A stretch of 40,242 nt of DNA. Source: Candidatus Limihabitans stercoravium (lineage in GTDB: Bacteria; Bacillota; Clostridia; Christensenellales; CAG-314). The notes below the pieces were generated by a model, which was given only the letters and a program-made list of their open reading frames with translations, did no database searches and had not been told where the DNA came from. Shown here piece after piece: positions 31,187 through 35,627 of the stretch. Location of the stretch: contig DVLO01000016.1 of NCBI GenBank assembly GCA_018715495.1, forward strand, positions 1 to 40,242, in the 5' to 3' direction. The first letter of the stretch is position 1. Each line of letters opens with the position of its first letter. The translations under genes and the position numbers were made by a program.

Positions 31187-32908
31187 TTACTTGCCCTCCC
31201 TGTACTTGTCCTGGATGTTTCCGTAGCACAAATTGCTACCCTCATCCCCCTTCCTTACTTCGGAAATGTCTGTGCCCTTGCACTCTGCAATGGCTTTCAT
31301 GACTGTCGGCATACAAAATCCGCCCTGGCATCTTCCCATCCCTGCACGAACACGACGCTTTACTGCGTCTACTGTGGGAGTGCCTATGCAACTGTTGACG
31401 GCATCCTTGATTTCCCCAAGGCTCACCTGTTCACAGCGGCACACAATTGTACCGTAATCGGGATTGCTTTCTATCAACCGCTGTTGTTGATTGCTGTCAA
31501 GTTTCGACACGCAGACGCAAGGATTACGCAACGGCGACCAGTTATCTTTCAATTGTACAACCATTGACTGATCTTGTAAAGCCTCAACTGTCATTTGTCT
31601 GACGTCAATGGCTATAGCAGGAGCTGCTGTAAGCCCCGGTGACTGAATACCTGCCACGTGGATGAGGTTTTTCACATGACTGCTGCGTTCAATGATGAAA
31701 TCTTCCTCATAAGTTGAGGCACGTACCCCTGAAAAGTAGGCAATTACGCTGCTCTTCTGTAGCAGCGGATAGCACAGTTTCTGTTTGTTGAACACATTGT
31801 CAACGCTTTCAGCCGTTGTAGAAGTATCCTCCCTTTCGGGGATTTCCACCGCATCGGGACCAAGCAGAACATTTCCGTCTACGGTAATGACAATGCCGCC
31901 TCCCTTGGTGTTTTTGTTGGCTTTCATTGTCTTCAATGTTGGCGCAAGGCTGATTGCGTGTGTCGGAAGATTTGAAAAATTCTTGTCCAACAGCAAGTCT
32001 GTTCCCTTGCGTGGATGTATCGAAAAGTATCTGTCATCTGCCATTTCAGCAATCTTGTCGGAAAACACGCCCGCACAGTTGATTACCACCTTGGAATGAA
32101 GCGTACCACGGTTTGTAACAACGGAAGTTACCCTGTCACCCACACGCACCATTGACAACACCGCTGTGTCCATTGAAAACTCTACTCCGTTCTGACGGGC
32201 GTTTTCGGCATAGGCAATTGTCAGTTTGTAAGGTGAAACAGCGCCCGTTGTACCCACCTTTAAAGCCCCCTTACTGTAAGTTAGAGTAGGTTCTACGGCA
32301 GTCATGTCATTGATAATTGAAACATTGGGTATCTTGTGTTTTTTAGCCCTGTGTAATATGGTCTTGGCAAGGAACTTAGTAAGCCTGTCTTTAAACACAA
32401 CGTACTGACCTTCACGCTTGAATTCAACCCCCAGCTGTCGGCACACTTCGTCGTACATGGCATTGCCCTTGACTCCGTAATGAAGTTTGAGACTCTTGCC
32501 TTTAAGGTCAATACCTGCATGCACCATTCCGTCATTTGCACCGCTTGCACCATGCGCCACGTCGCTGTGTTTTTCCACAAGCAGAGTACGACAATCAAGT
32601 TGCGACAACTCTCTTGCAACAGCGCAACCTACGACACCGCCGCCAATTACGACAACATCCCAGGTTGTGTCTTGCAATGTGCTGTCAGACACCACGGGCA
32701 AGTACGGTTGAGGTTCAACGTATCCACGCAGTTTGATGTCATTGACAACGTGTTTGCCACTCTTTTTGTCTACAAACATCTTACCAACCTTTACAATGTC
32801 CTGCCAGTTGTCCATCTGTCCACGCAACACCACACTACGGTCGGTAACAGTAACATCCACATCAACACCGTACAGTTTTTTAACCTTTTTTACAATGGAT
32901 TTTGTCAT
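31187..32908 (-). CDS. GlpA-like glycerol-3-phosphate dehydrogenase with N-terminal BON domain
   Basis: 573-residue flavoprotein. About 65 N-terminal residues resemble a BON domain (VDVTVTDRSVVLRGQMDNW and HVVNDIKLRG). Then comes a DAO-type FAD domain: VVVIGGGVVGCAVARELSQL, GASGANDGMVHAGID, and RKGTDLLLDK. The C-terminus is a BFD-like [2Fe-2S] domain with CRCEQVSLGEI and GMGRCQGGFC (C-x-C, C-x4-C). This layout fits the anaerobic GlpA type that oxidises sn-glycerol 3-phosphate to DHAP; the BON domain is an unusual addition. The start ATG 32908 has GAGGGA just upstream and replaces a farther TTG. First gene of the cassette. Confidence 0.87.
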   Translation of the reverse strand: MTKSIVKKVKKLYGVDVDVTVTDRSVVLRGQMDNWQDIVKVGKMFVDKKSGKHVVNDIKLRGYVEPQPYLPVVSDSTLQDTTWDVVVIGGGVVGCAVARELSQLDCRTLLVEKHSDVAHGASGANDGMVHAGIDLKGKSLKLHYGVKGNAMYDEVCRQLGVEFKREGQYVVFKDRLTKFLAKTILHRAKKHKIPNVSIINDMTAVEPTLTYSKGALKVGTTGAVSPYKLTIAYAENARQNGVEFSMDTAVLSMVRVGDRVTSVVTNRGTLHSKVVINCAGVFSDKIAEMADDRYFSIHPRKGTDLLLDKNFSNLPTHAISLAPTLKTMKANKNTKGGGIVITVDGNVLLGPDAVEIPEREDTSTTAESVDNVFNKQKLCYPLLQKSSVIAYFSGVRASTYEEDFIIERSSHVKNLIHVAGIQSPGLTAAPAIAIDVRQMTVEALQDQSMVVQLKDNWSPLRNPCVCVSKLDSNQQQRLIESNPDYGTIVCRCEQVSLGEIKDAVNSCIGTPTVDAVKRRVRAGMGRCQGGFCMPTVMKAIAECKGTDISEVRKGDEGSNLCYGNIQDKYREGK

Positions 32909-32952
32909 CTTTCCCTCACATAAAATGAACAAGATTTCTTTATGCTAACTAA

Positions 32953-33119: not shown

Positions 33120-33947
33120 TTACTTTACCACTTGTACTGCGTCGCCGTATTTGTCTGCAATGAACTGGGCAACTTCTTCACCTGTCAGCACTTCTTTCAA
33201 TGCCTTGGCAATGTCACTGTCAAGATTTTCGGGACGCACGGCAATGATATTTGCGTACTGACTTGTCACCGAACTGTCTTCCGTTGCAAGAGCCTCTTTC
33301 AGTCCAGCAAGAAGTGCGTAGTTACCGGGAATTACAGCAAGATCGACGTCAGCAAGAGATGATCCCAACAGGCTGGCATTGATTTCACGGTACTGATGAC
33401 CCTGCCAGTCACAGTCCTCTGCAGTAATTATTTCTTTGTCGTTGGTAACAGTGATGACGCCAAGACTTTCAAGCAAACGCAATGCGCGTGATTGGTTGGT
33501 CGCATCATTGGTCAGAGAAATGACAAGGCTGTCTTTTTCAAGAATTTCTTGAAGTGTTGTTCCCGTTGCCTTACCGCCCTTGTAAATGCCAAGTGGCTCA
33601 ACGTGGACACTGCACACGCCGACAAGTCTGTCGCTTTCCGCAACTGACTGATTGTATTCTTCAAGATAAATTCCGTGCTGGAAGTAATTGGCAAATGTAT
33701 CGCCTGCAGCGGTTGCAGGATTAAGTAAAGAATACTCATCGACACGCTGAACTTCAATCCTGATGTTGTAATCTTCCAAGAGAATATCTTTAGCAAATTC
33801 TAAAATTTCGGCATGAGGCACAGAGGTTGCACCGATGTAAACTGTACCGTCTTTACCTATTCCGTTTTCAATCGGGTTACAAGCTACTGCTGTCGAACAC
33901 ACCAACAGCAAACACAAAACTACTGCAATTACTGAAATTTTCTTCAT
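33120..33947 (-). CDS. metQ: Methionine ABC transporter substrate-binding lipoprotein MetQ
   Basis: 275-residue NlpA/MetQ-type binding lipoprotein. The signal peptide MKKISVIAVVLCLLLVCS ends at a lipobox-like TAVAC, with Cys about residue 23 as lipid anchor. The mature part has the family pattern VYIGATSVPHAEILEF, EVQRVDEYSLLNPATAAGDTFANYFQH and VHVEPLGIYKGG. It captures methionine (or related amino acids) outside the cell. The start is placed at 33947, preceded by AGGAG; the longer frame has no such site. 16 nt after metI, last in the operon. Confidence 0.93.
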   Translation of the reverse strand: MKKISVIAVVLCLLLVCSTAVACNPIENGIGKDGTVYIGATSVPHAEILEFAKDILLEDYNIRIEVQRVDEYSLLNPATAAGDTFANYFQHGIYLEEYNQSVAESDRLVGVCSVHVEPLGIYKGGKATGTTLQEILEKDSLVISLTNDATNQSRALRLLESLGVITVTNDKEIITAEDCDWQGHQYREINASLLGSSLADVDLAVIPGNYALLAGLKEALATEDSSVTSQYANIIAVRPENLDSDIAKALKEVLTGEEVAQFIADKYGDAVQVVK

Positions 33948-33963
33948 GATTCTTCTCCTTATC

Positions 33964-34631
33964 TCAAATATTCTTTTTATCAATTACTTTTACCAAAAGA
34001 TTGAACAACAACTGTGCAAGTTGAACAATGACTATCAGCACCACCACGCACAGCAAAATCATGGTAAAGTCGTAGTTTATGAAACCGTCCTGGTAGGCAA
34101 GATTTCCAAGACCTCCACCCCCTACCGTTCCTGCCATTGCAGAGTAGCCTACAAGGTTGATAAACGTCAGACAGATTCCACGTATCAGACCGGGCAAACC
34201 TTCGGGGACAAGCACCTTTGTTACAATCTGCCTCCAGTTAGCGCCCATGGATCTTGAGGCTTCAATCAACCCCCAGTCCAATTCACGCAGTGAGCTGTCT
34301 GTCACCCTTGCGGAAAACGGAATGGCTGCAATGGTCAACGGAACAATTGCCGCCGATGTACCAAGAGTTGTTCCTACAATCCAACGTGTAAAAGGAAGCA
34401 ACAATATCAACAGAATGATGAAGGGAATGCTTCGCCCTATGTTGACAATAAACTCACAAACAATGTTTACAAATCCATTGCGTTTTATACCGTTTTTTGA
34501 GGTGACGTACACAACAATTCCAATCGGAATGCCAATCAGACAAGCAACCAATGTGGCAACCACAACCATGTACAGTGTTTCGCCCGTTGCTTGTAAAATC
34601 TTACTAAAATACACATCCCATGTATATTTCA

Positions 34632-34632
<1 letters not shown>
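33964..34632 (-). CDS. metI: Methionine ABC transporter permease MetI
   Basis: 222-residue permease with about five transmembrane segments. It carries the MetI core RSIPFIILLILLLPFTRWIVGT, and the EAA loop that docks with the ATPase (IEASRSMGANWRQIVTKVLVPEGLPGLIRG). Its start and the metN stop share one base in TAATG, so the two are translationally coupled. Works as a homodimer with MetN2 and MetQ. Confidence 0.95.
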
Positions 34633-35405
<773 letters not shown>

Positions 35406-35443
35406 GTCATTTCTCCTAAAAAAATTTCCGAAAAATAAAAAAA

Positions 35444-35474
35444 AAGAATTAGTATCGGGTTGTTACTAATTCTT
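35444..35474 (-). terminator. Attenuator terminator T2 upstream of metN
   Basis: On the minus strand AAGAATTAGTA and TACTAATTCTT form a perfect 11-bp stem with a 9-nt loop, followed by nine T, one A and five T. It lies between the promoter and metN, so it must be overcome for metNIQ expression. Confidence 0.92.
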
Positions 35475-35477
35475 CGC

Positions 35478-35528
35478 AAAAAAAGCCATGGGTATGTAGT
35501 TTTCGTCAAACTGTCATTCCCATAGCCT
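35478..35528 (-). promoter_or_regulatory. Attenuator hairpin T1 overlapping the Met leader ORF
   Basis: On the minus strand AGGCTATGGG (35528-35519, inside leader codons 14-17) pairs with CCCATGGCTT (35492-35483) with two G-U pairs. An inner AGTTT/AAACT helix extends it. A run of seven T starts within the last bases of the right arm, so it can serve as pause hairpin or first terminator. Confidence 0.75.
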
Positions 35529-35567
35529 ACGCATCATCATCATGTTGTTGTTTGTAAAAATCTTCAT
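35514..35567 (-). CDS. Methionine-rich leader peptide of metNIQ
   Basis: A 17-codon ORF, MKIFTNNNMMMMRRLWE, then TGA. Codons 9-12 (35532-35543) are four consecutive ATG, preceded by three AAC (Asn). The ribosome binding site AAAGGTGA is about 7 nt upstream of the ATG, and the ORF lies fully inside the transcribed leader, 25 nt after the predicted start. The last codons form the left arm of hairpin T1. By analogy with leader peptides of amino-acid operons, it should make ribosomes stall when Met-tRNA is scarce. The ORF is seen directly; its role is inferred. Confidence 0.82.
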   Translation of the reverse strand: MKIFTNNNMMMMRRLWE

Positions 35568-35598
35568 AAAAAAGTCACCTTTTTCATCAGTTTTGACC

Positions 35599-35627
35599 AT
35601 TATACACACAATGTAGTACTTTGTAAA
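35599..35627 (-). promoter_or_regulatory. Sigma-A promoter of the metNIQ operon
   Basis: Minus-strand -35 TTTACA (35622-35627) and -10 TATAAT (35599-35604), spacing 17 nt. Predicted start near 35592, giving a leader of about 187 nt. Confidence 0.85.

Follow-up and report, generated by a model that had tools for sequence, protein, structure and literature searches.

On the minus strand of the window (the whole 40,242-nucleotide stretch analysed, from an uncultured Clostridia-like bacterium), between clpB and metN, we identified a leader region followed by the genes of a MetNIQ-type methionine importer (Table 1). MetI scored narrowly above its curated NCBIfam cutoff, while the identities of MetN and MetQ were assigned from the best model together with operon order; a domain search did not find a C-terminal NIL domain in the metN product. 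Directly 3' of clpB, a terminator-like hairpin separates that gene from the metNIQ leader. Also identified, directly downstream of metNIQ, was a gene for an FAD-dependent oxidoreductase. Its product is extended at the N terminus by about 85 residues and, according to the NCBIfam models that score best yet stay below cutoff, resembles glycerol-3-phosphate oxidase/GlpA.

Elements by which an attenuator is recognised are present at the locus, namely a short open reading frame (ORF) with a Shine-Dalgarno (SD) sequence and a run of cognate codons, followed by two predicted terminators, T1 (U7) and T2 (U9), ahead of metN. The promoter, the 17-codon ORF with its SD, the four tandem ATG codons, the overlap of T1 with the end of the ORF, and T2 with its T9 run had all been described in the initial annotation, and each was confirmed base by base. 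Specifically, the T1 left arm overlaps codons 14-17 of the leader ORF, and the leader folds far more stably than shuffled sequences (z = -5.85). A three-codon mini-ORF (AUG-ACA-GUU-UGA) was also observed to overlap the leader stop codon (AUGA); in a second species of the genus (G001) it reads AUG-ACG-GUU-UAA, such that the stop is kept through a change of UGA to UAA. This mini-ORF could possibly serve re-initiation, or may possibly be due to chance. The leader SD lies within a small hairpin in the window, which is not kept in G001.

Table 1. Features of the metNIQ leader region and neighbouring genes (window coordinates).
Feature	Position	Strand	Details
Sigma-70-type promoter, TTTACA-17-TATAAT	35599..35627	minus	11/12 consensus matches; 17-nt spacer
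-35 box, TTTACA	35627-35622	minus
-10 box, TATAAT	35604-35599	minus
SD of leader ORF	35576..35580	minus	AGGTG, from sequence
Leader peptide ORF	35514..35567	minus	MKIFTNNNMMMMRRLWE; 17 codons plus TGA
Four ATG codons (codons 9-12)	35532..35543	minus	presumed sensor
Three-codon mini-ORF	35517-35506	minus
T1 hairpin with U7, terminator-like	35478..35528	minus	dG about -19 kcal/mol
T1 left arm	35528-35519	minus	AGGCTATGGG
T1 right arm	35492-35483	minus	CCCATGGCTT; runs into T7
T2, predicted intrinsic terminator	35437..35474	minus	11-bp hairpin with U9; dG about -10.6 kcal/mol
T2 left arm	35474-35464	minus	AAGAATTAGTA
T2 right arm	35454-35444	minus	TACTAATTCTT
T9 run of T2	35445-35437	minus
metN, ABC ATPase	34632..35405	minus	start at 35405; best NCBIfam model MetN, below cutoff; PF00005
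metI, permease	33964..34632	minus	NF008049 MetI, 212.3 bits (cutoff 212)
metQ, NlpA-type binding lipoprotein	33120..33947	minus	ATG at 33947; PF03180, 168.7 bits (cutoff 27)
Terminator-like hairpin 3' of clpB	35886-35866	minus
FAD-dependent oxidoreductase gene	31187-32932	minus

Conservation of the leader in related genomes

Comparison within the window's genus comprised two species, that of the window and G001, in which the leader ORF (MSIILNNNMMMMLRLWE, then a stop codon) keeps the four-Met run. G001 possesses the same promoter boxes, an SD (AGGCGG) at like spacing, and both hairpins, with T1 pairing kept and a T2 stem identical to that of the window. The two species show almost no differences in leader, T1 and T2, although metN and leader DNA together are about 75% identical overall; identity is complete between the T1 right arm and the T2 left arm, both included, and the sequence 3' of T2 is not kept. 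Among 396 genomes of the order searched, true matches to three Met codons followed by an xRLW motif were confined to the window's genus, and no second copy of the leader was found in the genome. Four matches to MMMxRLW outside the genus were rejected as chance, having neither metN nor such hairpins nearby. The restriction of this motif to one genus, along with retention of the parts in a second species, agrees with the claim in the initial annotation that the Met run is beyond chance.

The arrangement also extends to the sister genus (G007), where a leader ORF (MSIFSHNLMMMLMP, then a stop codon) with the Met run MMMLM is followed by T1- and T2-like hairpins, and is preceded by the same -35 box as in the window and an SD (GAGG) at like spacing. 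The first Met of the run is codon 9 in the window, G001 and G007, and the 5' base of T1 falls at ORF nucleotides 40, 40 and 39, respectively. Conserved Met runs and covarying hairpins in related leaders, which the initial annotation had named as a means of checking its reading, were thus found, the hairpins being kept in G001 and carrying compensatory changes in G007. In the G007 alignment, nine of ten T1 pairs are kept and one is broken, with one compensatory change (G-C to A-U) and two one-sided changes, while all ten comparable T2 pairs are kept, with one compensatory change (U-A to C-G). Because the peptide following the Met run is not kept in G007, conservation outside the run being poor, the targets of selection appear to be the Met run and the RNA. 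The G007 T1 tail contains four U only, and this hairpin may therefore not be a terminator there. An antiterminator for T2 in G007 was borderline against shuffles (P = 0.065), and an alternative hairpin to T2 was predicted at -14.4 kcal/mol, about equal to T2 there (-13.9). At about 343-420 on the reverse complement of the G007 locus (L124), the T1 loop carries GCGCACA and the T2 loop its complement, UGUGCG; the two loops may contact each other, or these sequences may contribute to an antiterminator.

Across the family, operons were located through MetI, a metN DNA search having returned mostly ABC ATPase paralogues. Clear metI loci were identified in 15 of 41 genomes, 11 of which possess Met-rich leaders at metNIQ: the window, G001, G007, seven members of genus g3 (e.g. 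MKKLTLKMVMCMCNSRAERGFLSMTF), and G014, a weaker case whose leader begins MNGLLINKTMRMF. The other four carry T-boxes (L125, L130, L134 and L136), in which GAA(C/G)AUGGCC at the specifier corresponds, by position and as read by eye, to Met (AUG); none of the 15 operons combines a leader with a T-box. Given that leaderless family members carry Met-specifier T-boxes, the uncharged tRNA-Met signal would already be in use at metNIQ.

The g3 leaders (L126-L133) mix Met and Cys codons (KMVMCMC and variants), as does metL of Streptomyces lividans, which suggests that they may sense both sulfur amino acids. In four of the seven g3 genomes, the part of the ORF that immediately follows the Met/Cys codons can pair with the left arm of the terminator better than shuffles do (P <= 0.05), and in several g3 genomes CCCGAGC at this position pairs with GCUCGGG in that arm, a predicted textbook antiterminator that would correspond to the classic attenuator design. 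With the ORF masked as far as a ribosome halted on the first Met codon, folding favoured the antiterminator over the terminator in several g3 genomes, and predicted termination even when stalled in G033 and G376. Antiterminator figures for G014 (L135) are void, its terminator having been mis-placed.

Methionine codon clusters and RNA sensors upstream of metN

To place the leader in a wider setting, 199 metN upstream regions from the family, a class sample and contig-search matches (mostly Firmicutes, including Bacilli, and some Proteobacteria; region L265 left out) were searched for short ORFs that follow an SD and contain the same amino acid three or more times within eight residues, with dinucleotide shuffles as control. 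Met clusters were found in 21 of the 199 regions versus 1.5 in shuffles and one on the antisense strand (about 14-fold over shuffles), and clusters of at least four Met in eight residues in 10 versus 0.1. Cys clusters numbered 14 versus 4.2 and Trp clusters, in small numbers, 4 versus 0.6; none of the remaining common residues rose above twice its shuffled value in these regions. Since the 21 Met-cluster loci are related within families, they do not represent 21 independent events. A looser Met score, used first, gave 23 versus 1.9; L218, L263 and L046 in that scan look like chance matches.

Outside the window's family, Met-leader loci comprise seven families (f34, f37, f48, f57, f70, f77 and f102) and two named loci, with matches including Anaerocolumna aminovalerica (MRYKVSQSNNMNMMMCCGHMCGSMYMAYCCACYDT), and their peptides are wholly different from that of the window. 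A terminator-like hairpin lies between the ORF and metN in all eleven loci checked except L184, where the match is merely 32 nt before the called metN start. Most of the Met-cluster leaders possess a terminator, and in several a clear antiterminator lies within the ORF itself. With one value taken from each of ten lineages, the sequence that follows the Met cluster was complementary to the left arm of the terminator at a combined P of 2e-5. Met- or Met/Cys-rich ORFs were also noted before metNIQ in many families of Clostridia, at L050 (A. aminovalerica), L056, L186, L222, L224, L242, L247, L248, L256 and L271. Each of these loci possesses a terminator-like hairpin, and antiterminators occur at several of them.

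The Met-leader loci gave no match to an Rfam riboswitch or T-box; 20 sampled metN regions without a leader yielded five SAM riboswitches and one T-box, and SAM riboswitches precede metNIQ in other Clostridia. The initial annotation had seen no signature of either sensor at the locus, which is borne out by searches of the window (no Rfam family match at gathering scores) and by a relaxed search of the leader (E <= 10, nothing credible). Covariance matches to the T-box (RF00230) were absent at the leader, true T-boxes being detected elsewhere in the genome, and the sole genome match to the SAM riboswitch (RF00162) precedes metK, as is the case for the genus. T-boxes of the genus precede pheS, valS and thrS, and in G001 also a trpB-like gene (identified by eye from translations). 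With the SAM riboswitch and T-boxes sitting at other genes, metNIQ thus forms an exception within the genome.

Predicted switching and alternative explanations

Taken together, we consider it highly likely that the leader is a Met-sensing leader-peptide attenuator of metNIQ. Such attenuation, already proposed in the initial annotation, is well supported by comparison through the Met-specific leaders of relatives and the exchange with Met T-boxes in the family, and is weakened by the finding of no T2 antiterminator in the genus. The element would operate as a methionine-responsive, ribosome-mediated transcription attenuator of the importer. With ample Met-tRNA, the ribosome would traverse the AUG run and depart, allowing T1 (and T2) to form and to halt RNA polymerase ahead of metN. 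Under a shortage of charged elongator Met-tRNA, the ribosome would dwell on the run and, at codons 11-12, cover the base of T1, such that T1 could not form and polymerase would continue toward metN. We infer termination at each of the two hairpins, Met-tRNA charging as the signal, and a response in this direction; because relatives carry the same or similar arrangements, the leader very probably switches the importer on at methionine shortage.

These steps were examined by folding the window leader with RNA hidden up to the stalled ribosome (A-site codon plus 10 nt). Stalls at codons 11 or 12 opened the T1 base, in keeping with the earlier proposal that a ribosome there masks T1, and a ribosome at the stop codon left no T1. 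Stalls at codons 9 or 10 left T1 intact, a consequence that for codon 9 had gone unremarked. Since stalls at codons 11-12 open the T1 base, slow passage over the Met run would suppress T1, and this occlusion step is considered likely. Conversely, since T1 survives when the ribosome stalls on codon 9, severe starvation might result in termination instead of induction. Termination upon early stalling is known as superattenuation, and a complete halt on this first Met codon would resemble it.

T2 was predicted to form in every stalled state tested. Candidate antiterminators were sought by duplex energy relative to shuffles and by folding transcripts truncated 5' of the T2 right arm. Within the window's genus, no partner of the T2 left arm exceeded shuffles by duplex energy (P = 0.46 and 0.78), which justifies the doubt over a T2 antiterminator voiced in the initial annotation. 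Neither the window nor G001 has a classical 2:3 antiterminator that exceeds shuffles; several relatives do. Passage through T2 might involve partial read-through of this weak, AU-rich hairpin, or a small hairpin predicted between the freed T1 3' arm plus U-tract and the T2 5' arm (GCU..UUUU/AGAA..AGU; about -3.1 kcal/mol, the same in both species). As occlusion of T1 needs no antiterminator, these results lower the case for membership of the classical four-segment class and leave the working principle unaffected.

The unregulated appearance of T2 in folding would also fit T1 and T2 being constitutive tandem terminators, which are common in bacteria, or transcript-end hairpins, with the Met-rich ORF having no sensing role. 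We regard this as improbable, given that a good promoter lies just upstream and clpB is followed by its own terminator-like hairpin, that two genera share both the Met run and its distance from T1, and that Met clusters at metN are some 14-fold in excess of shuffles. There is still less reason to favour action in trans of the peptide or the terminated leader RNA, besides or in place of cis control; an attenuator leader peptide of this kind is documented in Sinorhizobium peTrpL (PMC7298713), but the present peptide is poorly kept outside the Met run in G007 and is wholly different in other lineages. Similarly slight is the prospect that the ribosome pauses for another cause (an antibiotic, general translation slowing or nascent-chain arrest), such that the signal would not be methionine. 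Gram-positive antibiotic leaders of this logic are described for Bacillus subtilis bmrCD, yxjB and vmlR (PMC4191407, PMC6851288, PMC9226507); however, many unrelated leaders here have a codon run specific for the very amino acid that is imported, no comparable excess is seen for other amino acids, and relatives use Met T-boxes. Least probable of all is an undescribed SAM or methionine riboswitch with an incidental ORF, which the SAM riboswitches before metNIQ in other Clostridia might suggest, but which is at odds with a leader consisting mostly of an ORF and two simple hairpins, matching no Rfam family, in a genome whose metK riboswitch is readily recognised.

Relation to known leader systems

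Enteric trp, his, leu and thr attenuators comprise a control-codon leader ORF, a hairpin overlapping the ORF, a U-tract terminator and a 2:3 antiterminator. The putative Met attenuator of the window shares the control-codon ORF, the ORF-overlapping hairpin and the terminator with its U-tract, but differs in that the run lies directly against T1, itself terminator-like, and that no antiterminator is evident for T2. In Firmicutes, methionine control is usually described in terms of SAM riboswitches, T-boxes and repressors. Of these, the SAM (S-box) riboswitch also controls methionine genes, here metK, but is a ligand-binding RNA and absent at metNIQ; the family Met T-boxes share the operon and the signal (tRNA-Met charging) with the leader, but involve direct binding of tRNA by RNA and no translated ORF.

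A re-annotation of S. lividans TK24 includes metL, encoding a Met/Cys leader (MSTTSDRTPATEATTTPGARCMCRRMCAF) directly before metNIQ (PMC8079986). The likeness lies in a short ORF with Met and Cys codons directly preceding this operon; metL differs in having a leaderless transcript, no clear Rho-independent terminator and no tandem Met run (PMC8079986), and is actinobacterial and unrelated in sequence to the window leader. A 2005 survey of actinobacteria found no methionine leader (PMC1262725). His leader peptides have been reported in Firmicutes for hisZ/hisS* (PMC2965389, Naville and Gautheret) and for his operons (PMC9413887, 2022), and the statement in the initial annotation that ribosome-mediated attenuation is established mostly outside Firmicutes needs softening to that extent. 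These systems likewise place tandem cognate codons before attenuator and terminator hairpins, and replace T-boxes in some lineages; they differ in concerning His and other genes, and in the antiterminators proposed there, none having been found for T2 of the window. A full-text search of the open-access literature found no report of Met leader peptides in Firmicutes, absence there being no proof, and the leader, very probably a sensor, belongs to a type that has scarcely been described in this group.

As a plausible if tentative scenario, Clostridia may have repeatedly evolved Met (often Met plus Cys) leaders at metNIQ, exchanged with Met T-boxes and SAM riboswitches, with the window's genus carrying a reduced form of the device; there, the terminator hairpin would be occluded by the stalled ribosome itself, and no classical antiterminator would be used. 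The locus and its relatives indicate that Met sensing through ribosomal translation is an option that recurs at the methionine importer, which bears on whether transcription-translation coupling in these bacteria is close enough for attenuation. A Met leader is also present in the cultured type strain A. aminovalerica DSM 1283 (L050), making the proposal testable. These leaders would provide a natural case of one operon switching among three RNA sensors of related signals.
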